64,000 bases of DNA from a virus, in IMG/VR virus record IMGVR_UViG_3300033153_015023, positions 1 to 64,000 of that record; one strand, 5' to 3'. Both the position numbers and the translations under genes were made by a program. The notes under the pieces are model-generated. The model did not search any database. It saw nothing but the letters and a program-made list of their open reading frames with translations, and was not told the DNA's origin. The first letter of the stretch is position 1. Each line of letters begins with the position of its first letter. Shown here piece after piece: positions 2,542-49,770 of the stretch.

Positions 2542-2769
2542 ATGAAGTTATTAAAACAGTTCGTATTAAAAAAAGATACGTCCACGTACAAACAGCTATT
2601 ATTTATCCTGCCTATAAAATGGCTTCAAAAGACAGGGATGGATAAAGGCGATTTTTTGAATGTGTATGAGATTGATGAATCTACTATAAAAATAGTTGCT
2701 GAGAAAAATCCTTTTGGTCAACCTGAGAATGTATCAAGGGTTGGCAGACCTGTAAAAAGTAAAGGATAA
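2542..2769 (+). CDS. AbrB/MazE-like small DNA-binding protein
   Basis: 75 residues. The segment ILPIKWLQKTGMDKGDFLNV followed by DESTIKI resembles the swapped-hairpin beta fold of SpoVT/AbrB and MazE proteins (pattern: IP-x-hydrophobic, helix, KGD, strand). Such proteins act as dimeric transcription regulators or antitoxins. No toxin gene is adjacent, so a regulator is more likely. A clear AGGAGG precedes the ATG, and a TATTAT box lies at 2522-2527. The C-terminal tail (GRPVKSKG) is basic. Confidence 0.6.
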   Translation: MKLLKQFVLKKDTSTYKQLLFILPIKWLQKTGMDKGDFLNVYEIDESTIKIVAEKNPFGQPENVSRVGRPVKSKG

Positions 2770-2773
2770 AGAC

Positions 2774-2803
2774 TTGATAAAGACTATGTATTTATATTAT
2801 AAT
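2774..2803 (+). promoter_or_regulatory. sigma-70 promoter before the replication operon
   Basis: TTGATA at 2774-2779, 18 bp, then a perfect TATAAT at 2798-2803. It would drive the leader hairpin at 2826-2870 and the replisome organizer, loader, helicase and primase genes. Confidence 0.65.
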
Positions 2804-2825
2804 GAACTTCTTCTTCTTCTTTTTA

Positions 2826-2870
2826 GAGCAGGGAATTTGACGCAATGTCTTTTCCCTGCTCACTTTTTTA
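2826..2870 (+). terminator. leader hairpin with T-run, probable attenuator
   Basis: Ten base pairs join GAGCAGGGAA (2826-2835) to TTCCCTGCTC (2852-2861) around a 16-nt loop, followed by ACTTTTTTA. It has the form of an intrinsic terminator but lies between a promoter and the start of the replication operon, with the ribosome site directly after the T-run. Partial termination or antitermination of the replication genes is the simplest reading. Confidence 0.65.
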
Positions 2871-2880
2871 AAGGGTAATT

Positions 2881-3309
2881 ATGTCCATAATTAATTTTTT
2901 TATTGATGATGACATAATTATATCTATCAATAATCGTTTTAGATATGCCAGACAACCTAGAACCATCTTAGAAAAAATTCCTTTTAAAGAAATCATCTAC
3001 TATCTCAATGACAAAACTGGAAAGAAATTCCGGTATACTAATCCTAAGTCGAAAGAAAAAATCACTAGTAGATGGAATGAAGGGTACAGGTTGGATGATT
3101 TTAAAAAGGTTATTGATGTAAAGGTAGCTGAATGGACAGGTACTAATTACGCTATGTATATCAGACCAGAAACTTTATTCGGATCTAAATTTGAAGGTTA
3201 TGTAAATCAAGAACGGGAAGGGACAAATATCTGTCCTAACCCAGAATGTCAATATTTATTAAATGGGACAGAAATAAATTGCCCCAAATGTCATTGGAGG
3301 ATTCGGTGA
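2881..3309 (+). CDS. replisome organizer-type protein (Phg_2220_C domain) with zinc ribbon
   Basis: 142 residues. Residues about 34-112 carry the Phg_2220_C pattern of phage replication proteins: a YLNDKTGKKFRY-like start, NEGYRLDDFKKVIDVKVAEW in the middle, and RPETLFGSKFEGY at the end. The usual N-terminal DNA-binding part is shortened to about 30 residues. The C-terminus adds a zinc ribbon (CPNPEC, then CPKC) not typical of the family. In related phages this domain takes part in origin recognition and helicase loading. The stop overlaps the GTG start of the helicase loader (GTGA). Confidence 0.75.
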   Translation: MSIINFFIDDDIIISINNRFRYARQPRTILEKIPFKEIIYYLNDKTGKKFRYTNPKSKEKITSRWNEGYRLDDFKKVIDVKVAEWTGTNYAMYIRPETLFGSKFEGYVNQEREGTNICPNPECQYLLNGTEINCPKCHWRIR

Positions 3310-4163
3310 AGATAATTAACGATCTTAAAATAGGCAAGGGGTTTATTTTTCGAGTAGGTGGACAGCTTGTTTGTGGTTTATGTAGAAAAGAAATTGAGGT
3401 TAGCCAGAAATGTATATACTGTTCTAATTCTTTTGAGCATGGGATAAAAGATGTAGACCATGCTACTAGAATAACAGATGCCTTTTTTAACCAGTTATTC
3501 CCTAAAGAAGATATTTATGATGAGAATAGTGATTACAGACCTAAAGTATTGCATGTAGGGAAACTTTACGATGTAATAGAATCCTGTGAAAAAGCAAAAC
3601 AGTATGATAAGATATATATGAAAGAGCGACTTCTTTCGGAGGCAAACATTCCAAAAAGATATTGTTTTTTAGGTTGGAAAGATTTCCATTCTAATCTAGA
3701 TCTAACTGGGTTAAAAGATTTGTGCTCGAATAATTCAAATGGGGAAATTATTTATTTGCATGGCGATAATAATACTGGTAAAACTTTATTAATGAGTATC
3801 ATGTTGCAAAGATTTCTTGATAATGAGCATAGTATTTATTTTATTACACCAGAGCAAATTGCTAATTTATACGCAAAACACTGGTATGATTCTACAGATA
3901 AGAGAAGTGATTTAGAAAAAATACGATGTTTAGATGTTGTCGGTGTTGATGATTTATTCGATCCGAAGAAGGTGTTTATAGGGAAGAATGGTGGTCTGAT
4001 TATCCCTTCTGTAGATAGTTTTTTACGCTATCGAGTACATAACAATTTAACTACTATTATTACAACTAATATCCCTCTCTTACAAGTTGCACAAACTGAA
4101 TTCCATCAAACTGGAAAACTTTTAGAAAGAGGCGATAAAAAGTTTCGTATTTTATTAACATAA
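3306..4163 (+). CDS. DnaC-like helicase loader, AAA+ ATPase
   Basis: 285 residues. An N-terminal zinc finger (CGLC, then CIYC) is followed by an AAA+ core with Walker A GDNNTGKTLL (about residues 155-164), Walker B VVGVDDLFD, and a sensor-like TTIITTNIP. This is the layout of DnaC/DnaI proteins, which open the DnaB ring onto single-stranded DNA at the origin. I take the GTG at 3306, which follows a TGGAGGA ribosome site and overlaps the previous stop; an ATG at 3246 would intrude 60 nt into that gene. The DnaB gene follows after 14 nt. Confidence 0.85.
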   Translation: MKIINDLKIGKGFIFRVGGQLVCGLCRKEIEVSQKCIYCSNSFEHGIKDVDHATRITDAFFNQLFPKEDIYDENSDYRPKVLHVGKLYDVIESCEKAKQYDKIYMKERLLSEANIPKRYCFLGWKDFHSNLDLTGLKDLCSNNSNGEIIYLHGDNNTGKTLLMSIMLQRFLDNEHSIYFITPEQIANLYAKHWYDSTDKRSDLEKIRCLDVVGVDDLFDPKKVFIGKNGGLIIPSVDSFLRYRVHNNLTTIITTNIPLLQVAQTEFHQTGKLLERGDKKFRILLT

Positions 4164-4177
4164 AGAAGGGAAGATGT

Positions 4178-5608
4178 GTGGATTTCTTTTTAAGTAGTGA
4201 TGAAGACAATGAGAGAATTGTTCTAGAAGGTGCTGTGAGAGTGGAAGAGTATTACCAGGTTTTTAGTAGTACTGTGCCAGCAGATTTCCTTAAGGCAGAA
4301 CACAAATGTATTGCAACTGCTCTAATAGAAATAGAAAAAACATCTTCCCCAGGGTTACTTCTTGCCTTTTGTAAAAAAACTGATTTTGTTGCGCCATCTC
4401 TTGAATACATAAAAAAGTTATTTTTCCCGCCACTACCTTCAATAGAAGACTACAAAAAACATGTTGAGATACTCAAATCTGATTCTAGAAGAAGGGTTAT
4501 TGAGGATAAATTGCTTCCTCAATTAATTGAGCATCTTGCTAAAAAATCAGAGCCTATCGGCAATATTTCTGATATAGCAATATCAATAAAAGATGTTGCT
4601 GACTCAGGCGCTGCTAAAATCTATATTCAGAATACAAAAGAACTGTTGGATTCATATAGCGTGGTAGAAGAAGCGCGAAGAAGCGGCAGTAGTTTTTATA
4701 GCTGTGGATTCAAACAAATAGATGAAGAATTAACAAGGGGGTTTTTTCCATCTGGTGTTACTATTATTGGTGGACGTCCAGGGATGGGTAAAAGTTCTTT
4801 TGTTATCAGTAGTGCAATGAGTCTTTCTTTCAAAAAAATTCCTATTCTGTTATTTTCTTTGGAGATGTCATCTATATCTGTTATGGATAGAATTCTATCG
4901 AGAGAGACCAGGGTACCCCTCTCTCAACTAGTAAAACATTCCCACGAATTACCACCAGCTCAATTACAACAAATAAAGGATGTAAAAAAACGACTTTGGG
5001 ATAACGAATATCTGTATGTGTGCGATAGACCAGGTGTATCATTACGTTTTATCAGGGAACAGATTAAAAGGTTCCAGAATATTCATGGGATCAAATACGC
5101 TATTGTATATATAGATTTGTTTGGAAAGATAAAAGATTTGAGTGAGGCTAATATGGCTCAAAGTTATGAGAAAAATCTGAATTTAGTGCAGGGCATGGCA
5201 AGAGAGTTAGGCGTGCATTTTGTTTTAGCAGCACAGATAAATAGAGCTGCTGAGAAAGGAAAAAGTATTTGGAATTACCGGCCTAAATTGCATGATATAA
5301 AGAATTCCGGTGCATGGGAAGAAGTAGCGGATCTGATACTATTTTTGTTTCGTGGAAAATATTATGATGATACTCTCGAAGAAGATGTTATAGAAATTCA
5401 GATAGCTAAACAGCGGGATGGTGCCATGAATACTGTAAAATATTTTCAATTTGTGGGGGAATATGCGTTAATATTAAATGCAGATGTTGTTCCCGCTGAT
5501 AAGAAGGGTAGGGATAGTGGAAAAGAAGATAGCTCGGATGTATATGAAAGCTCTGTTGAAGAAGTCGAGAGAATTAATTCAGCTCGACACCGAAAGATGG
5601 TTACTTGA
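4178..5608 (+). CDS. dnaB: replicative DNA helicase, DnaB family
   Basis: 476 residues, about the family length. The N-terminal helical domain is followed by the RecA-like motor domain with Walker A GGRPGMGKSSF (near 196-206), the Walker B-like region IVYIDLFGKI, and the AAQINRAAEKG and HDIKNSGAWEEVADLILFL blocks seen in DnaB proteins. It unwinds DNA 5' to 3' ahead of the polymerase. The start is GTG with an AGAAGGGAAG ribosome site. It lies between its loader and the primase, with which it overlaps by about 70 nt. Confidence 0.93.
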   Translation: MDFFLSSDEDNERIVLEGAVRVEEYYQVFSSTVPADFLKAEHKCIATALIEIEKTSSPGLLLAFCKKTDFVAPSLEYIKKLFFPPLPSIEDYKKHVEILKSDSRRRVIEDKLLPQLIEHLAKKSEPIGNISDIAISIKDVADSGAAKIYIQNTKELLDSYSVVEEARRSGSSFYSCGFKQIDEELTRGFFPSGVTIIGGRPGMGKSSFVISSAMSLSFKKIPILLFSLEMSSISVMDRILSRETRVPLSQLVKHSHELPPAQLQQIKDVKKRLWDNEYLYVCDRPGVSLRFIREQIKRFQNIHGIKYAIVYIDLFGKIKDLSEANMAQSYEKNLNLVQGMARELGVHFVLAAQINRAAEKGKSIWNYRPKLHDIKNSGAWEEVADLILFLFRGKYYDDTLEEDVIEIQIAKQRDGAMNTVKYFQFVGEYALILNADVVPADKKGRDSGKEDSSDVYESSVEEVERINSARHRKMVT

Positions 5609-6464
5609 TCTAGGGGCAGAAGAACTTCAGCAGCTTGAGAGGGGTTGGTGGGAATTCCGCTGCCTAAATCCTGATCATAACGACCATCATCCCAGCATGG
5701 GATACAATGAATTTACTGGGGCATGGTCCTGTTTTAGTTGTCTTTCAAAAGGCAGTGGCCCGGTGTTTTTAACCATGTTGGCGCTTGATAAACAATATGA
5801 AGAAGCGGTTGAGTTTGTTCTTGACTATGTGATAGGTAAAGAGGATTGGAAGCCTAGAGAGATCAAAAAGAAGCGTAGGATAAAAGTACCTATAGAAGGG
5901 TTTGTAGAACTTCCAGCAGCAGCAATTAAGTATTTAAAAGATAGAGGAATTCCTATAAAGTTTGCACAAAAAAAGGGTGTTAAATGGTCGAATAGTATGA
6001 GCAGGATTATTATTCCCATAACAGAATATTATTGGACTGCAAGGGCTATTGATGATTCAAAACCGAAGTACCTGCATACTAAAGGTTTTTCAAAAAGTGA
6101 AGTTTTGTACAATTTTGATTCTGTGCATAGGGTTGTTTCTGGTGTAGGTGTTGTCGAAGGTGTGTTTGATGCGTGGAAAGTAGAGCTCGCAGGATTCCCA
6201 TGCGTGGCAACTTTCGGCGCGGGAATATCGAATGGACAATTAAGGCTACTGGATGGATTTGTACGATTAGTAGCCATACCTGATAAGGATCAAGGTGGTG
6301 AATTATTTATTGAGAGAATTTCAAAAGTGAGGAATCCTGAATTATGGATAGCGGAACCACCTGGGAAGGATGTAGGGGCGTGTACTATAGAAGAAGTGAG
6401 GAAGATATGGGAAGAAAAGAGGCTGTTTTGGAAGGTATATTCACATATTTTTGTCAAGAAATAA
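5538..6464 (+). CDS. dnaG: DnaG-type DNA primase (zinc-binding and TOPRIM domains)
   Basis: 308 residues, shorter than cellular DnaG (about 600). An N-terminal CHC2-type zinc finger (CLNPDH, then CFSC) is followed by a core with TOPRIM motifs VVEGVFDAWK (glutamate) and AIPDKDQGG (the D-x-D pair). The C-terminal helicase-interaction domain is missing, as in many phage primases. It makes RNA primers and is encoded directly after DnaB. Start choice is uncertain: ATGs at 5538 and 5544 are plausible, and an upstream ATG at 5478 would overlap dnaB by 130 nt. Confidence 0.88.
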   Translation: MYMKALLKKSRELIQLDTERWLLDLGAEELQQLERGWWEFRCLNPDHNDHHPSMGYNEFTGAWSCFSCLSKGSGPVFLTMLALDKQYEEAVEFVLDYVIGKEDWKPREIKKKRRIKVPIEGFVELPAAAIKYLKDRGIPIKFAQKKGVKWSNSMSRIIIPITEYYWTARAIDDSKPKYLHTKGFSKSEVLYNFDSVHRVVSGVGVVEGVFDAWKVELAGFPCVATFGAGISNGQLRLLDGFVRLVAIPDKDQGGELFIERISKVRNPELWIAEPPGKDVGACTIEEVRKIWEEKRLFWKVYSHIFVKK

Positions 6465-6472
6465 AAAAGTTG

Positions 6473-6501
6473 TTGACAATTATTATTGTGGGGTTTATAT
6501 T
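6473..6501 (+). promoter_or_regulatory. sigma-70 promoter P2 (repeat array)
   Basis: TTGACA at 6473-6478, 17 bp, then TATATT at 6496-6501. It shares the block AAAAAGTTGTTGACA with the promoter at 1037. It starts just after the primase stop and drives the array leader. Confidence 0.75.
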
Positions 6502-6509
6502 ATAGAGAG

Positions 6510-6608
6510 TATGAGTATTCGACTATTTCAAAGATTTGTATTGCCTCCAAAAATTTGATATCTTTAGTCGGATACTCAGTCAAATTTGCGGGGGCTTTAT
6601 TTTTTATA
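6510..6608 (+). ncRNA. pseudoknot-like leader RNA, copy 2 (array leader)
   Basis: Stem A pairs 6512-6525 with 6565-6578 (14 bp, two G-T wobbles at most; GAGTATTCGACTA with TAGTCGGATACTC). Stem B pairs 6543-6557 with 6581-6595: 6 bp and 7 bp around a 2x2 mismatch, the same plan as copy 1 at 1072. The order A-B-A'-B' again makes a pseudoknot. The 3' end, GGGCTTTATTTTTTATA, is identical to copy 1, while both stems differ completely, so the structure rather than the sequence is conserved. It ends 13 nt before the first repeat of the array. Confidence 0.68.
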
Positions 6609-6621
6609 AGGGGGAATTAAA

Positions 6622-6914
6622 GAGCGGGCCAAGAAGAATGAGAAAACCAGTGGTCACGAGCGAGCCAATCCCCGCGAGAAAACCACCAGAGGTGAGCGAG
6701 CCACGGAATATGAGAAAACCATGTTTCACGAGCGAGCCAATGATCAAGAGAAAACCACTCCCCTGGAGCGTGCCAAAGGTGTGGAGTAAACCAGAGTGTT
6801 AGAGCGTGCCACGAATATGGAGAAAACCATAGAAGGGAAGCGAGCCATTGATGTCGAGAAAACCATTGATAAAGAGCGAGTCAAGTGAAAAGAGAAAACC
6901 AGTGGGTGTGAGCG
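6622..6914 (+). repeat. TIGR-like array: alternating 10-nt repeats, 8-nt spacers, 36-nt unit
   Basis: Two repeats alternate every 18 nt without a single slip. The edge type is GAGCGAGCCA (starts 6622, 6658, 6694, 6730, 6766, 6802, 6838, 6874, and a truncated GAGCG at 6910). The inner type is GAGAAAACCA (starts 6640, 6676, 6712, 6748, 6784, 6820, 6856, 6892). Repeats vary at one base at most. The sixteen 8-nt spacers all differ, for example agaagaat, gtggtcac, atccccgc, ccagaggt. This gives eight 36-nt units with the same repeat type at both ends. TIGR arrays of TIGR-Tas systems are likewise cut into 36-nt guides with two short spacers between alternating repeats. It is transcribed from promoter P2 towards the sigma-like gene. 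No Tas protein was recognised in the window. A protein-binding iteron array is the alternative. Confidence 0.8.
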
Positions 6915-6972
6915 TTATTATTTATTAAAAGGTTAAATTGATTTTAAAAAAGTTCAATATAAGGAGAAGAAG

Positions 6973-7662
6973 GTGCGACGTATAAAAAAGAAAGTAATCT
7001 GGCAGGTAAAAGCAAATCCAGAAAAAATAAGGCTCTGGAAACAAAATATTTCCAGGGGATTAAAACTTTATTGGATGTCACCAGCAGGCATATTAAGAAA
7101 ACAGGTTATGAGGGAAAGTTTCTCTGGACCTGTTAAAGTAGAGTATCAAAAGAAGATACAAAGTAAGAAACCTTTTGAAGATATTCTGAAGGAATTTGCG
7201 CCATGGAAAGAAGGTTTGATACGTAAGTTCTCTAGTTACCCAGCAGAAGAAATTTCACAGGCAATAGATATTGGCATGTGGAAGGGGTATACAAAGTGTG
7301 TAGATAAAAAGTATCTAACATCTTCTGTAACCAGCTATGGATACTGGTCCCTGCTAGATTTTTTAGAGAGTGAAAGACATCCCGATGGAAAACTTGTTTC
7401 TACACCTACTGCTAATATGGATGTTTTTGAAGATGATGTCATATCTATCGAATCAAAACCTTTATTCTGGGCAGCTGTAAAATTTGTTAGGGATAAACTT
7501 TCAAAACCTGGAAAAGAAACACTAGATCTTCTGATCAAAGGATATAGCCAGCGGGAAATAGCAGAAATAAGGGGTGTTTCACCAGGAAGAATTTCACAAA
7601 TTATTACAAATATTATCCGGCCACGAATAGCAGAAGTTTTATCCTATGCAAGTATTATGTAA
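6973..7662 (+). CDS. phage sigma-70-like transcription factor
   Basis: 229 residues from a GTG start behind AAGGAGAAG. The N-terminal 45 residues are basic, and QNISRGLKLYWMSPAG recalls NUMOD3-type DNA-binding helices. Residues about 65-135 resemble sigma region 2 (helical, with TSSVTSYGYWSLLDFLESER). The C-terminus is a clear region-4 helix-turn-helix (KGYSQREIAEIRGVSPGRISQIITNI). It probably redirects host RNA polymerase to phage middle or late promoters, possibly the GTTTTT-N4-TATTAT sites found next to it and elsewhere. It lies directly after the repeat array and may be read from the same transcript. Confidence 0.72.
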   Translation: MRRIKKKVIWQVKANPEKIRLWKQNISRGLKLYWMSPAGILRKQVMRESFSGPVKVEYQKKIQSKKPFEDILKEFAPWKEGLIRKFSSYPAEEISQAIDIGMWKGYTKCVDKKYLTSSVTSYGYWSLLDFLESERHPDGKLVSTPTANMDVFEDDVISIESKPLFWAAVKFVRDKLSKPGKETLDLLIKGYSQREIAEIRGVSPGRISQIITNIIRPRIAEVLSYASIM

Positions 7663-9060: not shown

Positions 9061-11457
9061 ATGAGAAGATTGATTATAAGGGAAAGACAGGCAAGAGTGC
9101 TTGCAACAAAAGATTGTTCTCTATGTGGTCTTTGTAAAGATAGTGTATCTAATAGTGGTGTAAAAAGATGTGAGCTTAAAGGTATTGGCCCTATAGATGC
9201 AAATATTATGTTTGTTGGGGAAGCGCCTGGAAGTGACGAATTGGAACAGAACGAATTCTTTGTAGGTTCTGCCGGTAATTTTCTAACTGATATGATGGAA
9301 GTTGCTGAATTAGATAGAAAGACTGTGCGTATTGAGAATATTGTACGCTGTAGACCACCTAATAATAGGGATCCGAAACCTACAGAAATTAGAGCTTGCC
9401 TTCCTTTCCTTGTAGAACAGATAAAAATTATTAAACCCACTGTAATTGTTACGCTTGGTTCTATTGCTTTTTCTGCATTAACAGGTCTATCAGGGATTAT
9501 GAAGTGGTCTGGCAGGAAATTATATTCAAGGAAATATCAATGCTGGTTACTACCTGCTTTACATCCTAGTTATTTTATTCGTTCTGGTGGGGCCTTTACA
9601 GCGGAAGGTGAATTGAGGTACGAGGTAGAAAGGTTCATAAAGACAATTGAGCTTGCAAAGAAAATACAATACAAAGCTCAAAGAGCTTCAGTTATTGAAA
9701 AGCATTTTGTTACTTCTCAAGCAGAAGCAAACGAAGTATTTACAAACTGTTGTCAGTCTAAAGTATTTGCATTTGATTTTGAAACTCATTTAGATGGTTC
9801 CCCTAGGGGCATTGGCCTTTGTTGGGAACCTAACAAAGCTTATTATATCCCAGAACTATTCTTTCAGGATGATATATTATTTCATTTTTTCAAGGATGCA
9901 GAGAAAGCAACAAAAGTAGCACATCATATTGCATTTGATCGTCCGGTTGCTAGATCTGTAGGGGCGGAAGTAGGTGATAACGTATTTTGTACCATGCTCG
10001 CTCATCATCTTATAGACGAAAATATTTCTCATGGTCTAAAAGAGATCGAGTGGGAATATATTGATAAGGGTGGTAGAGCAGATTTTTTAAAACCACACTA
10101 TGGAAAACCTTCTTGGGAATTAATTCCAGAAAAAATAATAGGTGATTATTGCTGTGAAGATGTAGAGAGCACTTTCCTATTATATTTCAAATTTAAAAAA
10201 TTGATGATAGAGGAAGGTGTTGATTATGTTTTTGATAATATAACAATGCCTGCAACCAGGGTTGTAGAACATATTGAATACGTGGGTGCACCTGTTGATG
10301 AGATAGCGCTGGAAAAACTGCAAACTAAATGTGAAGAAAGAGAAGAGCTTTGTGAGACTAGAATCTGGACAATTGCTAAAAAAGAATTTAATATAAATTC
10401 AGGTAAACAGTTAGGTGATGTGTTATACCTTGATCTAAACCTTCCTAAAATTAAAAATAATATAGATGAAAAAAATTGGCAGACAGGAAAAGGGAATTGG
10501 AAAACAGATGAAGAGACCCTTAAGGCACTTCAGAAGTGGGATACTCATGGAATTATAGAGCAGCTTCTTGATATAAAGGCACAACGTAAATTAATTTCTA
10601 CTTATATAAATGGTACTAAAAAACGGATGAGAGATGGAAGGTTGTACCATAGATTTTTACAACATGGAACTGTAACTGGCAGATTTGCAAGTGGTTTTCA
10701 TACCTTCCCAAAAGACCCTGATGTGCGTGCAATTATTGGTGCGCCTTTAGGTAGAAGTTTAGTTGATCTTGACGGTGATCAAATGGAATTGAGAATAGGC
10801 GCATCTCTTTCAGGTGACAAAAAAATGATAGAAGTTTTCCAGCGTGGTGATGATATTCATGCCTGGGTTGCAAGTTTTTTGTTTAATTGCAAATTGGAAG
10901 ATGTAACAGATAAACAAAGAGACATTGCAAAAGGATTTGATTTCGGTGTATTTTTTGGTAGGGGTATTAATTCAATCAGGGATGAATTTAAAGTTTCTGA
11001 TGCACAGGCACATAAATGGTATGATATGTTTTTTGAATTGCTTTCAGGTTTGTTAGAATGGATAGAAAATCAAAAAATTTTTGTTAAGGAAAATAAATTT
11101 GTTGTAAATTCATTTGGTAGAAAACGTCGTTTATCGTTAATTGACCATGATGTAAGTGATTTCCAGGCAGAGGCAGAAAGACAGGCTGTTAATACACCAG
11201 TTCAGGGCACTGCTTCTGATTGTGTTATTATCGCTTTAAGACGAATTTATAATAGGATAGTAAGGGAACATCTAGATGCAGTTATTTTTGCAACTGTGCA
11301 TGATTCTATTATGGTAGAATGTAATAATGATATAGCTGCATATGTCGGGCAGATGATGAAAGAAGAGTTTGAAAAACCTTATCCTTTTATAAAAGTTCCG
11401 ATAGTTGCAAGTGTTAATATCGAAAAAAACTGGTATGAACATGCAAGAAATAAGTAA
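9061..11457 (+). CDS. polA: uracil-DNA glycosylase / DNA polymerase I fusion
   Basis: 798 residues. Residues 1 to about 195 form a family-4-type uracil-DNA glycosylase: Cys19 and Cys22 plus later cysteines for an iron-sulfur cluster, GEAPGSDE, FFVGSAGNFL, and the HPSYF motif. A 3'-5' exonuclease follows (FDFETHLDG, AHHIAFDRPVA, YCCEDVEST), keeping its acidic residues. The C-terminal family A polymerase has motif A DLDGDQMELRIG, motif B RDIAKGFDFGVFFG and motif C TVHDSIMVE. It should replicate the genome with proofreading; the glycosylase part may detect or exclude uracil. The fusion is contiguous with no frameshift. It is preceded by the zinc-ribbon protein and followed by a promoter-like box. 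Confidence 0.93.
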   Translation: MRRLIIRERQARVLATKDCSLCGLCKDSVSNSGVKRCELKGIGPIDANIMFVGEAPGSDELEQNEFFVGSAGNFLTDMMEVAELDRKTVRIENIVRCRPPNNRDPKPTEIRACLPFLVEQIKIIKPTVIVTLGSIAFSALTGLSGIMKWSGRKLYSRKYQCWLLPALHPSYFIRSGGAFTAEGELRYEVERFIKTIELAKKIQYKAQRASVIEKHFVTSQAEANEVFTNCCQSKVFAFDFETHLDGSPRGIGLCWEPNKAYYIPELFFQDDILFHFFKDAEKATKVAHHIAFDRPVARSVGAEVGDNVFCTMLAHHLIDENISHGLKEIEWEYIDKGGRADFLKPHYGKPSWELIPEKIIGDYCCEDVESTFLLYFKFKKLMIEEGVDYVFDNITMPATRVVEHIEYVGAPVDEIALEKLQTKCEEREELCETRIWTIAKKEFNINSGKQLGDVLYLDLNLPKIKNNIDEKNWQTGKGNWKTDEETLKALQKWDTHGIIEQLLDIKAQRKLISTYINGTKKRMRDGRLYHRFLQHGTVTGRFASGFHTFPKDPDVRAIIGAPLGRSLVDLDGDQMELRIGASLSGDKKMIEVFQRGDDIHAWVASFLFNCKLEDVTDKQRDIAKGFDFGVFFGRGINSIRDEFKVSDAQAHKWYDMFFELLSGLLEWIENQKIFVKENKFVVNSFGRKRRLSLIDHDVSDFQAEAERQAVNTPVQGTASDCVIIALRRIYNRIVREHLDAVIFATVHDSIMVECNNDIAAYVGQMMKEEFEKPYPFIKVPIVASVNIEKNWYEHARNK

Positions 11458-29462: not shown

Positions 29463-29530
29463 GGATTTTTACTGATTGAGGAAGAGTGTGTAAAAATAAA
29501 TCAATTTAAAACATAACTTGGTTGGAAATA

Positions 29531-30928
29531 ATGAGAAGGATAAAATTAGATTATAGGGATAAAATACTTTGTGGTGATACATTGGAGGTTTTAAAAAGTA
29601 TGGAGGCTGGTATTGTAGATATGTGTATAACATCCCCGCCATACTGGGGCTTAAGAGATTACGGCACGGCACAATGGGAAGGTGGGGATAATGGATGTGA
29701 TCATATAAAAGAATATGCTAGAGCAAACGAATCATTGAAAAATAGTACCCTAGGGCCTTTAAAAAAAGGGCTAGGGGCTAACAATGCGGCTCATATTGCA
29801 CAAGAAAAACAATATGGAAAAACTTGCCTTAAATGCGGCGCTATCCGAATAGATAAGCAACTCGGCCTTGAACCGACCATCGATGAATATATCAGCAACA
29901 TGACGGCAGTATTCGAGGAAGTGAAAAGGGTGCTGAAGGATACGGGAGTACTTTTTTTAAATATGGGGGATGCTTATGCGAGTGCCAATAGTTGTCGTAT
30001 CATTGATGGTAATGGGCGAGCAGGTTTATCATATAATAGCACACCACCCCATAAACGTTCTAATAGATTAGCGAGTAATATTAAAGAAAAAGACCTGATC
30101 GGCCAACCCTGGCGCCTTGCTTTCGCTCTCCAGGCCGACGGATGGTATCTTCGCAGCGATATTATCTGGCATAAGCCCAATCCCATGCCTGAGAGCGTAA
30201 CTGATAGACCAACCAAGAGTCATGAGTATCTATTCCTGCTCACTAAGAAAAGCAAGTATTTTTATGATGCGGATGCGGTGAGGGAAGAGCATAAGGAAAT
30301 CAGCATAAAGAGAAGTCATAGAAAATGGGATGGTAATAGGGATATAGGGTCCATTAAGCCTTCTTGGTCAACCTTGAAGGCAGAGAATATGTGTCATCCC
30401 GCTGGCCGCAACAAGCGCACTGTCTGGACTATAGCAACACAAGCATATTCTGGAGCCCACTTCGCAACTTTTCCCGAAAAACTTGTAGAACCATGTATCC
30501 GTGCTGGAACCAGTGAGAAGGGTAACTGTGCTGAATGCGGCAAGCCGTGGGTGCGGATGGTGGAGAAAACAGATCCTCCCCGGCGTGATGTGAATAGTAC
30601 ATATCCCGGCAGGCAAACCCTTGCGACTCAAAAATATAAACATGATGAATCGGGTCCCGTAAAGCATACCATCGGCTGGAAACCTTCCTGCTCCTGCGGT
30701 GCGGATACCGTGCGGCCTATTGTACTTGACCCATTCATGGGCAGCGGGACCGTCGGCCTAGTAGCGAAAAAGCTGAATCGGGATTATGTTGGCATAGAAT
30801 TAAATCCAGAATATATTAAAATGGCGGAAAAACGGATCCGGGGGCAGATGGGATTATTTGTAAAAAATAATGAGCCTTCAGTTAAGATAAAAAAGAAAAG
30901 AAGAATAAGAATGAGTATAGGAATATGA
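29531..30928 (+). CDS. beta-class DNA methyltransferase (N4-cytosine/N6-adenine type)
   Basis: 465 residues. Motif IV TSPPYWGLRDYG comes early and motif I DPFMGSGTVGLVAKKL late, the beta-class order; TSPPYW favours N4-cytosine methylation. Between them are zinc-ribbon cysteines (CLKCG, CAECG, CSCG) typical of this phage family. No restriction endonuclease is adjacent, so it is probably a solitary enzyme that protects phage DNA. Start uncertain: ATG at 29531 or TTG at 29522. G+C is higher than in the flanking small genes, suggesting separate acquisition. Confidence 0.88.
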   Translation: MRRIKLDYRDKILCGDTLEVLKSMEAGIVDMCITSPPYWGLRDYGTAQWEGGDNGCDHIKEYARANESLKNSTLGPLKKGLGANNAAHIAQEKQYGKTCLKCGAIRIDKQLGLEPTIDEYISNMTAVFEEVKRVLKDTGVLFLNMGDAYASANSCRIIDGNGRAGLSYNSTPPHKRSNRLASNIKEKDLIGQPWRLAFALQADGWYLRSDIIWHKPNPMPESVTDRPTKSHEYLFLLTKKSKYFYDADAVREEHKEISIKRSHRKWDGNRDIGSIKPSWSTLKAENMCHPAGRNKRTVWTIATQAYSGAHFATFPEKLVEPCIRAGTSEKGNCAECGKPWVRMVEKTDPPRRDVNSTYPGRQTLATQKYKHDESGPVKHTIGWKPSCSCGADTVRPIVLDPFMGSGTVGLVAKKLNRDYVGIELNPEYIKMAEKRIRGQMGLFVKNNEPSVKIKKKRRIRMSIGI

Positions 30929-31001: not shown

Positions 31002-31202
31002 ATGAAACTTGGAAAAATAGTAGAAGGATTGAGGGATAAAAGTTTCCCTTTTTCAGTACGTATTGCTTGTGAAGGTAAAGAGTATATAGAACTAGATGTT
31101 TTTAAAGAGTTTCAAGGGAAACTCAAGACACGTACAGAGACAGATATTATAAAAATATTAAAATCTATTCGTGGGCCGTCTTCTAGCATTACAATTATAT
31201 AA
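31002..31202 (+). pseudogene. N-terminal ParB-like fragment of a methyltransferase, frameshifted
   Basis: 66 residues. DVFKEFQGKLKTRTETDI and IIKILKSI match the start of the ParB-like domain that precedes phage DNA methyltransferases. The next expected segment (about 25 residues, with the GFSFP- and LDGH-type core) is missing, and the sequence resumes in another frame as GRLLALQLYKKIGGKIP in the next gene. The simplest reading is an internal deletion with frameshift at about 31170-31180, splitting one gene into two. Confidence 0.65.
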
Positions 31203-32244
31203 GAAGATAGGTGGAAAAATACCTAAATTACCTGCTTGTCGAATAGAGGCTAGAAATGAAGCGGATGCAAAACAAAAATTATTACGGCTTAATAGTAGAT
31301 ATGGTATAATTGATTTTGATGGTATGAGTGAGTTTGTTAATGATATGGAAATTAATATTGATGATTTAGCGTTACCTGATATTAATATAGATGATTTAAA
31401 AGTATTATTAACTGGTGAAGAAGGTACAAAAGCTGATGATGAGCTGCCTGAAGATATCCTTGTAATATCTAAGTTAGGTGATTTATGGGAATTAAATAAT
31501 CATAGGATACTATGTGGGGATAGTACGGACGCTGAACAGGTTGGAAAACTGATGGCTGGAGAGAAGGCGGACATGGTGTTCACCGATCCGCCTTATGGGA
31601 TGTTTTTAGATGCTGATTATTCGAGCATGGAAGGGATAGGGAAAGGGAATAAATACAGCAATGTTAAAGGAGACCATAAAGATTTTAACCCTGAATTAAT
31701 CAACTCAATTTTTATAAACTTTTCGTATTGCAGAGAAATATTTTTATGGGGAGCCGATTATTATGCCGAATTGATCCCGAAAAGAAATAAAGGTTGTTTT
31801 ATCGTATGGGATAAAATGAAAGGCGGAGAAGGTGCCAATGATAAATATGATAAAATGTTCGGGAGCAATTTCGAATTGTGCTGGAGTAAAACAAGACATA
31901 AAAGGGCGATTGCAAGAGTCTTATGGAAAGGCATATTTGGATTAGAAAAAGAACACGATCACAAAAGGCATCATCCCACCCAGAAACCGACAGAGCTTGT
32001 TTTATGGTTTTTGGATAAATTCTCAAAAAACAATAAACCGATCACCGACCCCTTCCTCGGCTCCGGCTCTACCCTCATCGCCTGTGAGAAAACCGATCGC
32101 ATCTGCTACGGCATGGAAATCGAACCGCACTATGTAGATGTATCTGTTCGTAGATGGATTGATTGGTGTAAACAAAATAATAGAGCTATAAAAATAAAAC
32201 TGAATGGGAAGATTGTAAAAGAAGATATATTGATAAATAAGTAA
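31171..32244 (+). CDS. DNA methyltransferase (DPPY type) with truncated ParB-like front
   Basis: 357 residues from a GTG. The first 60 residues are the second half of a ParB-like domain (GRLLALQLYKK, EADAKQKLLRLNSRYG). The catalytic domain is complete: motif IV FTDPPYGMF, motif I DPFLGSGSTLIACEKTD, HHPTQKP and a final YGMEIEPHY. DPPY suggests N6-adenine methylation. The domain that would normally precede it is in the broken frame at 31002-31202, so DNA targeting may be altered while catalysis persists. Confidence 0.82.
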   Translation: MGRLLALQLYKKIGGKIPKLPACRIEARNEADAKQKLLRLNSRYGIIDFDGMSEFVNDMEINIDDLALPDINIDDLKVLLTGEEGTKADDELPEDILVISKLGDLWELNNHRILCGDSTDAEQVGKLMAGEKADMVFTDPPYGMFLDADYSSMEGIGKGNKYSNVKGDHKDFNPELINSIFINFSYCREIFLWGADYYAELIPKRNKGCFIVWDKMKGGEGANDKYDKMFGSNFELCWSKTRHKRAIARVLWKGIFGLEKEHDHKRHHPTQKPTELVLWFLDKFSKNNKPITDPFLGSGSTLIACEKTDRICYGMEIEPHYVDVSVRRWIDWCKQNNRAIKIKLNGKIVKEDILINK

Positions 32245-41883: not shown

Positions 41884-42681
41884 TTGAGAGCTGATTTATA
41901 CCAGGGTGATTGTTTACAAGTGATGGATTTACTTATTAAAAAAGGTATAAAAGTAGATGCAATTATTACGGATTTACCTTATGGAATTACGGCGTGCAAG
42001 TGGGATTCAGTTATTCCATTAGAGCCTATGTGGATATTGCTAAAACAACTTATTAAAGACAAGGGTGCTATAGTATTATTTGGTAGCCAGCCTTTTACAA
42101 GTAAAGTAATTGTAAGTAATTTAAAGATGTTCAAATATTGTTGGGTATGGAATAAACGATTGGCAGGAAATGGAATATTAGCAAAAAAACAACCACTAAA
42201 AATACATGAAGATATAATGGTTTTTAATAGTAGGATATATTATCCAGAAATGAGGAAAGGGAGGGCAAGATGGAAAGGTGGGATTAAAGATAAACATGGT
42301 ACTTTCTCAAATGCGGAAAGTAAAAAAGTATGGAATGATAAGTATTATCCAACTTCTATTCTTGAATTTTCAGGAGCAGGGATGAGGTATATAAGAGTTC
42401 ATCCTACTCAAAAACCAATACTATTACTAGAATATTTAATTAAAACATATACGAATGAAAAAGAACTTGTTCTTGATTTTACTATGGGTTCAGGCACAAC
42501 AGGGATAGCTTGTAAAAATCTAAACAGAAATTTTGTAGGAATAGAATTAGATAAGAATTATTTTGAAATAGCAAAATATAGAATTTTAGATATAGCAAAT
42601 AATGATGATAGTATAATATGTCATTTAGAAAGAACTTTATATAGTAAAAGGAGGATAAAGAATGAAAATCAGATTACCTAA
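41884..42681 (+). CDS. DNA methyltransferase (N6-adenine type, D-L-P-Y variant)
   Basis: 265 residues from a TTG. Motif IV reads TDLPYGITACKWDSVIP, the D-L-P-Y form; motif I is LDFTMGSGTTGIACKNL; HPTQKPILLLEYLI is typical of the N4/N6 family. It stands alone inside the head gene cluster without a nuclease, so it should protect phage DNA. Base composition is more AT-rich than the neighbouring head genes, suggesting insertion. Confidence 0.85.
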   Translation: MRADLYQGDCLQVMDLLIKKGIKVDAIITDLPYGITACKWDSVIPLEPMWILLKQLIKDKGAIVLFGSQPFTSKVIVSNLKMFKYCWVWNKRLAGNGILAKKQPLKIHEDIMVFNSRIYYPEMRKGRARWKGGIKDKHGTFSNAESKKVWNDKYYPTSILEFSGAGMRYIRVHPTQKPILLLEYLIKTYTNEKELVLDFTMGSGTTGIACKNLNRNFVGIELDKNYFEIAKYRILDIANNDDSIICHLERTLYSKRRIKNENQIT

Positions 42682-45901: not shown

Positions 45902-46248
45902 AAAAGCGATACAGAATCAAATTAGACTTTGATGCAGCTCACTACTTACCTCACTACGCTGGACCCTGTGCCAATCTCCATGGTCATACTTGGCATATTG
46001 AGTTCTATATTACAGTTCCAAAGAAGTTAGATGAGAGTGGAATTGGACTTGATTTCAAGGTTTTGAAAGAAAAGCTGAAAGCAATTCTACCGGATCATCA
46101 ACTTATAAACGACATCATAGAACATCCGACAGCAGAGATTATTGTTGAGAAACTCTATTATAAAGCTGCAATGGAATTTCCGATGATGGTGGAAAAAGTT
46201 ATATTATGGGAGACAGAGAAAAATGGAATTGAGTTTTCCAATAGTTGA
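45898..46248 (+). CDS. queD: 6-carboxy-tetrahydropterin synthase (QueD)
   Basis: 116 residues, full length. FDAAHYLPHYAG and NLHGHTWHIEFY give the three zinc-binding histidines, and DHQLINDI with the late EKVILWET matches the family. It converts 7,8-dihydroneopterin triphosphate to 6-carboxy-tetrahydropterin, the second step to 7-deazaguanines. It overlaps queE by 26 nt. Confidence 0.93.
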   Translation: MKKRYRIKLDFDAAHYLPHYAGPCANLHGHTWHIEFYITVPKKLDESGIGLDFKVLKEKLKAILPDHQLINDIIEHPTAEIIVEKLYYKAAMEFPMMVEKVILWETEKNGIEFSNS

Positions 46249-46813
46249 GGTATTCGATAGCATCCAGGGAGAAGGTGCTCGAGTAGGTACTGCTTGTCGC
46301 TTTGTACGTTTTGCGGGATGCAATTTAAAGTGTGACTTTTGTGACACTGATTACAAAGAGCGAGAAAGAGTTGGGATAGACGAACTTGTGAGAAGGATGG
46401 AAGGAGCTCCTGGAAAGAATATTGTCATTACCGGCGGTGAACCTACTATTCATAAAGATCTACTTAAGTTTGTTTGGAAATTACGTGCTCATGGATATCA
46501 TATCGCTCTTGAGACAAATGGTGAAAACAACGTTGGGTTTGAGGTCGATTGGCTCACGGTTTCTCCAAAGAGTTATTTGTTTAATCAATTATACGGTGAT
46601 GAAATGAAGGTTCTTTGGATGCGTAATAATGCCTCTGATAATGCTGTCCGCTCTCATTCTTTACGAAGAGGTAGTAATTTTAAACACTATTTCATCCAAC
46701 CAATTGAGCGAAAAGGTAAGTTTGAAAAAATAGATGAGATAATAGAATTTATAAAGGAGAATCCAGAGTGGAGACTGAGTATACAAGCACATAAGATATT
46801 AGGAATTCGTTAA
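46223..46813 (+). CDS. queE: 7-carboxy-7-deazaguanine synthase (QueE), radical SAM
   Basis: 196 residues. The radical-SAM cluster motif is CNLKCDFCDTDY, preceded by DSIQGEGARVGTACRFVRFAG; VITGGEPTIHKD follows. It makes 7-carboxy-7-deazaguanine from the QueD product. It ends just as the folE frame begins, with coupled translation likely. Confidence 0.93.
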   Translation: MELSFPIVEVFDSIQGEGARVGTACRFVRFAGCNLKCDFCDTDYKERERVGIDELVRRMEGAPGKNIVITGGEPTIHKDLLKFVWKLRAHGYHIALETNGENNVGFEVDWLTVSPKSYLFNQLYGDEMKVLWMRNNASDNAVRSHSLRRGSNFKHYFIQPIERKGKFEKIDEIIEFIKENPEWRLSIQAHKILGIR

Positions 46814-47778: not shown

Positions 47779-47949
47779 ATGCCTATAACATCATGTACAA
47801 AGAAAGGTAAACCTGGTTTCAAGTGGGGTAAGAGTGGGAAATGTTATCCTTATACTCCTGGAAACAAAGTAAGTAAGACAGCTGCAAGGAAGAAAGCTGC
47901 TAGACAAGCCGCCGCGATTCATGCTTCTGGATATAGAGAGAAAAAATAA
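47779..47949 (+). CDS. small basic conserved phage protein
   Basis: 56 residues. CTKKGKPGFKWGKSGKCYPY followed by ARKKAARQAAAIHASGY is a motif pair found in short proteins of many tailed phages near head genes. Function unknown. It starts one base after the previous stop. Confidence 0.65.
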   Translation: MPITSCTKKGKPGFKWGKSGKCYPYTPGNKVSKTAARKKAARQAAAIHASGYREKK

Positions 47950-47978
47950 TACCTCCTCTTTTCCTTTATGAAACCTAT

Positions 47979-47994
47979 GTATTTCTATTATTAC
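47979..47994 (+). promoter_or_regulatory. promoter-like motif before the scaffold-capsid genes
   Basis: GTATTT (47979-47984), CTAT, TATTAC (47989-47994): one change in each half of the GTTTTT-N4-TATTAT motif with the same spacing, about 35 bp before the scaffold gene. Confidence 0.42.
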
Positions 47995-48028
47995 AGATAA
48001 ACAGAAAAACTTTTAATTGGAGGACGCA

Positions 48029-48709
48029 ATGGAAATGTTGCACGAGTATCTCTTTATGGATCTACAGTGGTTCGCAGAAGGGGATGAAGGGGAAACAGAA
48101 GAAGAAAGAGAAGCAAGAGAGGCAAAGGAAGCTGAAGAGGCTACTAAAAAGCTTGAAGTAGATGGTCTTTCTGAAGAAGAACTAAAAACTCTTGTTAGAA
48201 AATTGGATGAGAACAATAAGAAGCTTTCTGGTCTCTCTCGAGAGCGGCTTCATGAAATCATGGAGAAAAAAGCCAAGTTGAGAGAGATTGAGAAAAAGGA
48301 GAAAGAGGAAAGGGAAGCAGCTCTTAAAGAGAAAGAGAAGTATAAAGAGCTGTACGAAGGACTAAAACCAAAATATGATGTTCTTGAGAAAGATGTAGCA
48401 AAGACACACACTCTTTTTGAAGAAGAGTTTGAATTGCTAAAGGAAAGTCTTCCAGAAGAGTATCATAAACTGATTCCGAAAACAGACATTCGAGAACAGG
48501 TAAATTGGATAAAGAATTTTCAGTTGACTGTTGTTGAAAAGGAAGAGCCTGCTGGCGAGAAAAAGAAAAGTGTTGGCGGTGGTAGTGAACCTTCTAAGAA
48601 GGGTTCAAAGGAAGAAGCAGGGAAATCTGCAATTGAAGAGCAAATTCAAAAATGCGAGACGGCAGAAGAACTAGAAGAACTGCTAAGTAAATACGGTCGT
48701 ACTGTATAA
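48029..48709 (+). CDS. capsid scaffolding-type protein
   Basis: 226 residues from ATG at 48029 behind TTGGAGGA. After the leader FMDLQWFAEG it is a long Glu/Lys coiled coil, then a Gly/Ser/Lys region (VGGGSEPSKKGSK) and a short helical tail, the usual build of a scaffold. It directly precedes the major capsid gene, which shares the LQWFAE motif. Confidence 0.82.
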   Translation: MEMLHEYLFMDLQWFAEGDEGETEEEREAREAKEAEEATKKLEVDGLSEEELKTLVRKLDENNKKLSGLSRERLHEIMEKKAKLREIEKKEKEEREAALKEKEKYKELYEGLKPKYDVLEKDVAKTHTLFEEEFELLKESLPEEYHKLIPKTDIREQVNWIKNFQLTVVEKEEPAGEKKKSVGGGSEPSKKGSKEEAGKSAIEEQIQKCETAEELEELLSKYGRTV

Positions 48710-48786: not shown

Positions 48787-49770
48787 ATGAAAACTAAACT
48801 TTTCAGTAATGTCCATTTACAGTGGTTTGCTGAGACTACAACTGCGACCCTAACCGGTCTTGTTCAGACTGCTTACAGTAAAGCTGTTGAGTTTGCTTTC
48901 CAGCCCAACTTGCTCTTTGCACAATTTGCTCAGAGCAAAACGTGGAAGATCAGCGACAGAGATCCAATGCCTGGTGACGTTGTTACCTTTACGATCTTTG
49001 GCGCGCTTAGTACCGCGACAGGCGCTCTTTCTGAGACAGGAGATCCTACTGCAGCTACAATGACTAAAACTCAGAGGAGTGTAACTCTTGCTGAGTACGG
49101 TCAGTTAGTGACTACTACTTCAAAACTTCGGACTCTGTCTTTTGCGAACATCGATCTTTCCGCTGCAAGAGTGGTTGGTGACAGTATGGGGAAGAGTATA
49201 GATTTAATCGCTCGAGCTGCTTTTGATTCTCATACAGGATCTTCGTACGTTAAGTACGCAAGTGGTTCAAATGCTACTGCAGTTTTATCTTCATCAACTA
49301 TTACAGCTGCAGACATTCGTTATGCGCACAACAGGTTGGCAAGAGGTAATGTTATCAAGCCCGATGGTATGTTTTATGTTGCAATAGTGCATCCAGATGT
49401 ATCTCATGACTTGAGAGCAGAGACAGGCAGCGGTGCTTGGCGTGCTCCGAAAGAGTATGTCGATCCGGCAAATATCTACAATGGAGAGATTGGCTCTTTC
49501 GAAGGCTTTCGCTTCGTTGAGACTTCAAATGCAAATCTATCGACTGATGGTGCTTCTGGTTCTGTTGATCTTTATACTTCGTACTTCTTCGGCTATCAAG
49601 CTGTTGGGTATGGAGAAGGGATTGCACCGGCGATGGGTATATCAGGTCCGTTTGATGCCCTGCAACGCCTGATGAATGTGTATTGGTACAGTTTGTGTGG
49701 GTTCGGAGAATTACGGAGAGAGAGTCTCTTCAAGTTCTACAGTGCATCCAGCGTAGGTTCTAATAGTTAA
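48787..49770 (+). CDS. major capsid protein
   Basis: 327 residues, HK97-fold size. The leader HLQWFAETTTATLTGL precedes a long N-terminal part, and the middle AKQVALAE-type pattern is seen as SVTLAEYGQLVTTTSKL, followed by spine-helix and P-domain-like regions (DLIARAAFDSHTG). It follows the scaffold and is followed by an intrinsic terminator, fitting very high expression. Codon use is the most G+C-rich of the window, as expected for an abundant product. Confidence 0.88.
   Translation: MKTKLFSNVHLQWFAETTTATLTGLVQTAYSKAVEFAFQPNLLFAQFAQSKTWKISDRDPMPGDVVTFTIFGALSTATGALSETGDPTAATMTKTQRSVTLAEYGQLVTTTSKLRTLSFANIDLSAARVVGDSMGKSIDLIARAAFDSHTGSSYVKYASGSNATAVLSSSTITAADIRYAHNRLARGNVIKPDGMFYVAIVHPDVSHDLRAETGSGAWRAPKEYVDPANIYNGEIGSFEGFRFVETSNANLSTDGASGSVDLYTSYFFGYQAVGYGEGIAPAMGISGPFDALQRLMNVYWYSLCGFGELRRESLFKFYSASSVGSNS

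Follow-up and report, generated by a model that had tools for sequence, protein, structure and literature searches.

A solo TIGR array in a complete phage genome without a recognisable Tas gene

INTRODUCTION

The closest described system is SpTIGR, from Salicola phage CGphi29, whose 36-nt tigRNAs have been sequenced and whose TasH protein was shown to cut DNA (PMC12045711). The CGphi29 array (HQ634153) is built from an edge repeat, AAGCGAGCCA, and a loop repeat, AAGACAACCA, separated by 8-nt spacers and recurring with a period of 36 nt. TIGR spacers are typically of 9 nt, those of SpTIGR being of 8 nt, and a terminator after the array is typical, but not defining, of TIGR arrays (PMC12045711). 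The searches that led to TIGR systems started from Tas genes and would have passed over any array that lacks one; no report of such arrays was found in the open-licence literature that we searched. Viral guide arrays that lack effector genes have been described in another setting, the mini-CRISPR arrays of SPV1 and SPV2, which occupy the same position and carry different spacers in close relatives, and for which a trans-acting host effector was assumed (Medvedeva et al. 2019, PMC6858448). Here, we describe an array of the TIGR type in a complete phage genome for which no Tas protein could be recognised.

RESULTS

Architecture of the array

The window, by which we mean the whole stretch of 64,000 nt that was analysed, corresponds to bases 1–64000 of an 80,025-bp virus record (G000). 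Between positions 6622 and 6914 it carries edge (GAGCGAGCCA) and loop (GAGAAAACCA) repeats of 10 nt each, 16 altogether, in strict alternation, their starts falling at 6622 + 18n (n = 0–15), i.e., at steps of exactly 18 nt. The 16 spacers are each exactly 8 nt long and no two are alike; the whole forms eight units with a period of 36 nt (Table 1). Perfect copies of the edge or the loop account for 10 of the 16 repeats, and the other six have one mismatch each (GAGCGGGCCA, GAGCGTGCCA twice, GAGTAAACCA, AAGCGAGCCA and GAGCGAGTCA). Edge and loop both have the form GAG....CCA, the linker of the loop being AAAA. This architecture is shown directly. The alternation, the 18-nt steps, the 16 different spacers of 8 nt and the eight 36-nt units are as given in a preliminary description made from the sequence alone, which held in these respects. 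The further statement that the edge type closes the array on both sides held only in part: the first edge is of full length, as it is in several relatives, but the 3′ boundary consists of the first five edge bases only, GAGCG (6910–6914), followed by TTATTATTT. The loop-N8-edge pattern occurs seven times in the 80-kb genome, always within the array, and no reverse-strand or reversed-pattern match was found anywhere in those 80 kb, which excludes a chance origin. A coding tandem repeat was rejected, as the stretch is noncoding, with in-frame stops in all six frames. A CRISPR array, with a single repeat of 21–50 nt and spacers of similar length, is ruled out by the alternating 10-nt repeats.

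The array is preceded by a predicted sigma-70 promoter and a leader, and is flanked by the genes for a DNA primase and a sigma-factor-like HTH protein (Table 1). The promoter call rests on the consensus match only, three such sites being present in the region against 2.1 expected from shuffled sequences. The segment from 6500 to 6625 folds with −30.2 kcal/mol (z = −2.45), and the leader includes a 14-bp inverted repeat, TGAGTATTCGACTA/TAGTCGGATACTCA (6511–6575), which might act as an operator or give structure to the leader RNA. No rho-independent terminator was detected on the plus strand between 6300 and 7100, and 6400–7000 gave no match to an Rfam RNA family.

Table 1. Coordinates of the array, its units and the features around it. 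Positions are those of the window unless stated.
Feature	Position	Strand	Basis or remark
DNA primase gene, left neighbour	5478..6464	+	phrog_47, 7.7e-48; context only
Predicted sigma-70 promoter, TTGACA-17-TATATT, upstream of array	6473..6501	+	11/12 consensus bases
Leader, promoter to first repeat; long hairpin possible	6502..6621	+	Fold and inverted repeat
TIGR array	6622..6914	+	8 × edge(10)-spacer A(8)-loop(10)-spacer B(8), then half edge GAGCG
Unit 1	6622..6657	+	Edge GAGCGGGCCA, A AGAAGAAT, loop GAGAAAACCA, B GTGGTCAC
Unit 2	6658..6693	+	Edge GAGCGAGCCA, A ATCCCCGC, loop GAGAAAACCA, B CCAGAGGT
Unit 3	6694..6729	+	Edge GAGCGAGCCA, A CGGAATAT, loop GAGAAAACCA, B TGTTTCAC
Unit 4	6730..6765	+	Edge GAGCGAGCCA, A ATGATCAA, loop GAGAAAACCA, B CTCCCCTG
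Unit 5	6766..6801	+	Edge GAGCGTGCCA, A AAGGTGTG, loop GAGTAAACCA, B GAGTGTTA
Unit 6	6802..6837	+	Edge GAGCGTGCCA, A CGAATATG, loop GAGAAAACCA, B TAGAAGGG
Unit 7	6838..6873	+	Edge AAGCGAGCCA, A TTGATGTC, loop GAGAAAACCA, B TTGATAAA
Unit 8	6874..6909	+	Edge GAGCGAGTCA, A AGTGAAAA, loop GAGAAAACCA, B GTGGGTGT
Terminal half edge GAGCG	6910..6914	+	Would close the last 36-nt tigRNA at its 3′ end
Sigma-factor-like HTH gene, right neighbour	6973..7662	+	Context only; not Tas
Exact site of unit 1 of the G001 array	G013 position 10115; G001 (reverse complement) position 49681		Not claimed as a target

The repeat pair belongs to a family of arrays linked to tas

The following dual-repeat traits of TIGR are present in the window: alternating repeats of 8–12 nt, short spacers, a 36-nt unit, boxes C and D in both edge and loop, an A-rich loop linker, an additional edge pair, and an array that closes with a 3′-truncated edge, the 5′ truncation of the first edge that is also expected of such arrays being absent here. 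The SpTIGR edge is alike to that of the window at nine of 10 positions, one copy of AAGCGAGCCA being found inside the window array, and the SpTIGR loop has the same form as the loop of the window; 8-nt spacers, the 36-nt period, a 3′ half edge and a tailed-phage carrier are also common to both. Box D is GAG in the window and UG for TasR; edge and loop motifs are described to covary (PMC12045711). In CGphi29, however, TasH is encoded immediately upstream of the array, whereas the phage of the window is without any Tas.

An exact scan for GAGAAAACCA-N8-GAGCGAGCCA returned 52 loci in 51 viral contigs, and a scan with the repeats in reverse order returned seven further records. The same repeat pair is present in 58 other viral records, 47 of which have a Tas match (counted over whole records; G037 has only a 57-aa fragment, and several more run off the end of their contig). 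Clustering of the ORFs revealed a protein of 235–355 aa common to most loci, and in all 41 tas loci that were fetched the gene is on the array strand, at a median distance of 20 bp and at most 733 bp. Some members of this protein family match Pfam Transposase_20, an IS110 domain related to Nop. A profile built from 22 members matched the solved structures of TasH (21kl) at 4.7e-63 and of TasR (9mty) at 6.2e-43, far ahead of IS110 transposases at just 5e-5, and the array-adjacent proteins are Tas proteins. With one Tas of the family as the query, tblastn matched only three of 50,697 phage records, two of them being the same Salicola phage. The TIGR-TasA loci of uncultivated phages (for example, L040, L011, L013 and L017) are identical to the window in repeat pair, spacing and end structure, but differ from it in having tasA within the array or next to it, in many cases together with a ParB-like gene. 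The family identity of the repeats is thus shown by the presence of tas beside the repeat pair in most relatives, by the TasH and TasR profile matches and by the likeness to SpTIGR, and the TIGR-like identity put forward in the preliminary description held; we consider it very likely that 6622–6914 is a TIGR array.

A ParB-like protein of 222–265 aa adjoins tas and the arrays at L011, L013, L017, L018, L024, L027, L030, L040, L043 and L050. These ten loci, in which arrays often flank both genes, probably correspond to the published tasParB association. The repeat pair is also found in L088, L089, L090, L091 and L092, contigs from bins assigned to PVC, Dehalococcoidia, Spirochaetales, Aenigmatarchaeota and Veblenbacteria; among these, Tas was seen within the fetched DNA only in L092, and the bin assignments are perhaps unreliable.

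No Tas in the complete genome

The first 114 bp of the window recur exactly at 79912–80025 of the record, and with this terminal direct repeat G000 is a complete phage genome. It encodes terminase, portal, major head and tail proteins and a full replication module. No Nop-domain Tas had been recognised in the window at the outset, and a search of the rest of the genome for Nop-domain proteins had been proposed; no Tas or Nop match was found in the complete 80,025 bp, either with Pfam Nop, with the family HMM at maximum sensitivity, or by profile search. A hidden Tas at 47937–48158 was considered and rejected as noise: the HMM score there, the best obtained, is of 9 bits (E 0.035), with no Pfam support and no nearby array. 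The family HMM detected no tas fragment near the window array, and the ParB-like protein that adjoins tas in the ten loci is absent from the genome. The absence of tas, as judged by these searches, is shown, and the phage is very likely to be without a recognisable Tas; for this reason the locus is classed as an array only, not as a complete TIGR-Tas system. The suggestion that the array is an orphan is thus borne out, and more strongly than could be known from the window.

The nearest relative, G012, is also complete (127-bp terminal direct repeat) and has 49 genes in common with G000, their proteins being 44–60% identical. Gene order at the site is the same, but the primase and sigma-like genes of G012 are only ~75 bp apart, and this genome has no array and no Tas. 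Given the ~75-bp gap, the array, the promoter-like site and the leader either were gained by the G000 lineage, as an insertion of ~500 bp, or were lost by G012. When the primase, sigma-like and DnaB proteins were used as queries, G012 was the only true relative retrieved, and no Tas-bearing relative of the window phage was found. A ParB-like gene lies at 1172–1951, 5 kb upstream of the array, and is absent from G012; it has no profile match to the tas-linked ParB family and was rejected as a TasParB. The window also has three DNA methyltransferase genes and a gene for a QueE-like protein of deazaguanine synthesis (29522–30928, 31171–32244, 41884–42681 and 46223–46813), a possible hint that the phage DNA is modified.

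Other orphan arrays, and a phage pair that differs in tas

Eleven other records lack Tas, seven of them uninformative, with an array that lies at, or close to, the edge of the contig. The well-flanked orphans are G001, G004 together with G010 (one phage), and G006. G001 (L014, 89 kb) resembles the window in having a solo dual-repeat array with a conserved leader and no Tas in its 89 kb, but belongs to another phage group, with only about six proteins in common with the window genome and with the array placed between DNA polymerase-side genes and the gene for a gp32-like SSB. G001 and G013 (L027) were compared over 40 kb and are 97–99% identical in DNA across most of it. The order at the shared site is leader-array-tas-array-parB-array-trailer in G013 (L027, 2800–5540) and leader-array-trailer, with four units, in G001 (L014, 2960–3350); the leader of the G001 array is that of the first array of G013, and its trailer that of the last. 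The two have no spacers in common. In this single phage species, the repeats and the leader are stable, the spacers have been fully replaced and tas was gained or lost. A deletion through recombination between the flanking arrays would give the structure of G001, a possibility that we only infer. In locus L036 (contig G037, 26325–26420 on the minus strand), all that is left of tas is a C-terminal piece of 57 aa, 23 bp from the array, and there is no other Tas match on the 32-kb contig; G037 is likely to be an intermediate in the loss of tas. No protein family is common to all of the well-flanked orphan phages, G006 sharing none with the window genome, and nothing thus points to a replacement effector shared among them.

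The hypervariability of the spacers is shown: across relatives the repeats are shared and the spacers are not, even between G001 and G013. Identical spacers in many unrelated relatives, which the preliminary description had named as an observation that would refute guide function, are therefore not what is found.

Repeat conservation and the processing footprint

At 0.38 mismatches per repeat, the window array has fewer than most Tas-bearing arrays, many of which exceed 0.9. Its departures from consensus are found at positions 1, 6, 6 and 8 of internal edges and at position 4 of a loop, all of them positions at which Tas-bearing arrays tolerate change (P = 0.0033, or 0.0004 when pooled over the orphans, where P is the chance that uniform mutation does as well and only true arrays are counted). 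This shows a constraint of the Tas type on the window repeats, which speaks against old decay; a recent loss of tas is not excluded, because the mutations could predate the loss.

Across the family, internal edges are near-invariant at positions 2–5, 7 and 9 (n = 385). First edges are degenerate at positions 1–6 and conserved at 7–10 (n = 36), that of the window being itself of full length, and last edges are conserved at positions 1–5 and degenerate at 6–10 (n = 28). This asymmetry, a footprint shown family-wide, is as expected if each guide starts with the 3′ half of an edge and ends with the 5′ half of the following edge, with a cut between positions 5 and 6, and the end of the window array at GAGCG coincides exactly with the family boundary after position 5. 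Moreover, the pairing that such an RNA would have between position 7 of one edge and position 4 of the next (C4-G7) is kept in eight of nine non-consensus cases across the family. An asymmetry of this kind is not what DNA-binding sites would give.

Target searches

Targets were modelled on the published cleavage pattern, as spacer A, a gap of 0–2 bp and the reverse complement of spacer B. The window array has no self-target at one mismatch or fewer in any geometry. When the 417 units of all arrays were compared with 1.65 Mb of non-redundant phage sequence, matches with at most one mismatch were most frequent with a gap of 1 when the geometry was the correct one (33 against ~22), a suggestive excess but one that is not significant, 36 cells having been inspected. 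Over 1.6 Mb, the window pairs gave three 1-mismatch matches at gap 1 against none at gaps 0–3 in control geometries, but gaps 7–8 score too, and units 1 and 3, for which the whole viral collection was scanned, showed no convincing gap preference. Thus, the comparison of adjacent spacer pairs with phage and viral sequence, also proposed in the preliminary description, identified no convincing target of the window array in the sequence scanned. Unit 1 of G001 (TTAATGTT/CTAATGAA) has an exact site, with a gap of 3, in a conserved region of its own DnaB-like gene and in that of G013 (Table 1); because of its AT-rich sequence and of a gap wider than the 2 bp that TasR tolerates, it is not claimed as a target.

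DISCUSSION

The explanation that we put first is that of a solo TIGR array encoding eight 36-nt guides which are used by a Tas protein in trans, a reading as likely to fail as to stand, in which transcription, processing, the trans-acting Tas, the targets and the benefit to the phage are all inferred. Transcription from the putative promoter at 6473–6501 would produce a precursor RNA. A Tas dimer of outside origin, encoded by the host, by a prophage or plasmid or by a phage infecting the same cell, would act in trans and bind GAG (box D) and CCA (box C), and a cut inside each edge, between positions 5 and 6, would release AGCCA-A8-GAGAAAACCA-B8-GAGCG, of 36 nt. Spacers A and B may then pair with opposite strands of a single target of 16–18 bp. 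The guides of the phage would in this way serve a foreign effector, most likely against competing mobile elements. The arrays of SPV1 and SPV2 offer a parallel, as guide arrays of viral genomes with a promoter-bearing leader and no effector genes; these, however, are CRISPR arrays for which reciprocal targets between viruses were found, whereas the window array is of the TIGR type and none was found for it. Against the trans reading it must be said that the host is unidentified and no Tas has been observed in it, that no convincing target was found and that there are no expression data.

The main rival is that the array is a relic, the phage or a recent ancestor having lost an array-adjacent tas, for example through recombination between arrays, and the array being now idle. 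This is possible. The multi-array locus of G013 and the single array of G001 are the outcome expected of such a deletion, and the tas fragment beside the array of G037 is probably a visible intermediate of loss. However, the repeats of the window are among the best conserved and their mutations fall at tolerated positions, the promoter-like site and the phasing are intact, and no remnant of tas is found near the array. Less probable is that the array is a decoy, with unmatched tigRNAs flooding a hostile Tas of a host prophage or of a rival phage, much as small-RNA anti-CRISPRs do. An effectorless array with intact Tas-binding repeats and no close self-target is what a decoy would be expected to look like, but a decoy has no need of spacer diversity, and yet no two of the 16 spacers are the same and arrays are replaced as a whole; nor is there direct support for this idea, which we regard as unlikely. 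More doubtful still, and very unlikely in our view, is the idea that the G000 genome encodes, at some other place, an unrecognised effector without sequence kinship to known Tas. The genome does have several genes of unknown family, for example, that for a 431-aa protein (L060:13255–14550, minus strand). However, tas lies within 733 bp of the array in all 41 loci that have it, whereas primase and sigma-like genes adjoin the array here; the well-flanked orphans have no protein family in common; and the retention of boxes C and D implies an effector of the usual Nop kind. All but excluded are binding sites for a protein, be they replication iterons or an operator array: the array does sit between the primase and sigma-like genes, and the arrays of G004 flank a gp32-like SSB gene, but two alternating repeats at fixed spacing with free spacers, the adjacency of tas in most relatives, terminal half repeats with the asymmetry predicted for RNA processing and the near identity to SpTIGR all speak against binding sites and support the preference for guides already expressed in the preliminary description.

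If the trans reading is followed further, solo TIGR arrays could be a distinct mobile strategy, in which hypervariable dual-spacer guide cassettes travel without an effector and would draw, by analogy with the mini-CRISPR arrays of archaeal viruses, on the Tas proteins of hosts, prophages and rival phages. The tas cassette would be gained or lost within a single phage species while the leader and the array site persist. We advance this bolder view tentatively, the balance lying slightly against it. What is new is a complete phage genome with a Tas-less array, together with further orphan phages, and a pair of phages, 97–99% identical, that differ in the presence of tas and in every spacer. With these, questions left open by the TIGR study, namely the origin of the arrays, their turnover and the role of Tas in phages, become directly testable, as does the action of Tas on guides supplied in trans between viruses. 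Lastly, Microcystis phage Mvi-JY20 (PP438412, L119) encodes a Tas-like protein, annotated as hypothetical, at 2740–3465, with a TGCGAGCC-type array at ~3569 in the locus; Mvi-JY20 is an isolated cyanophage and so can be used experimentally.
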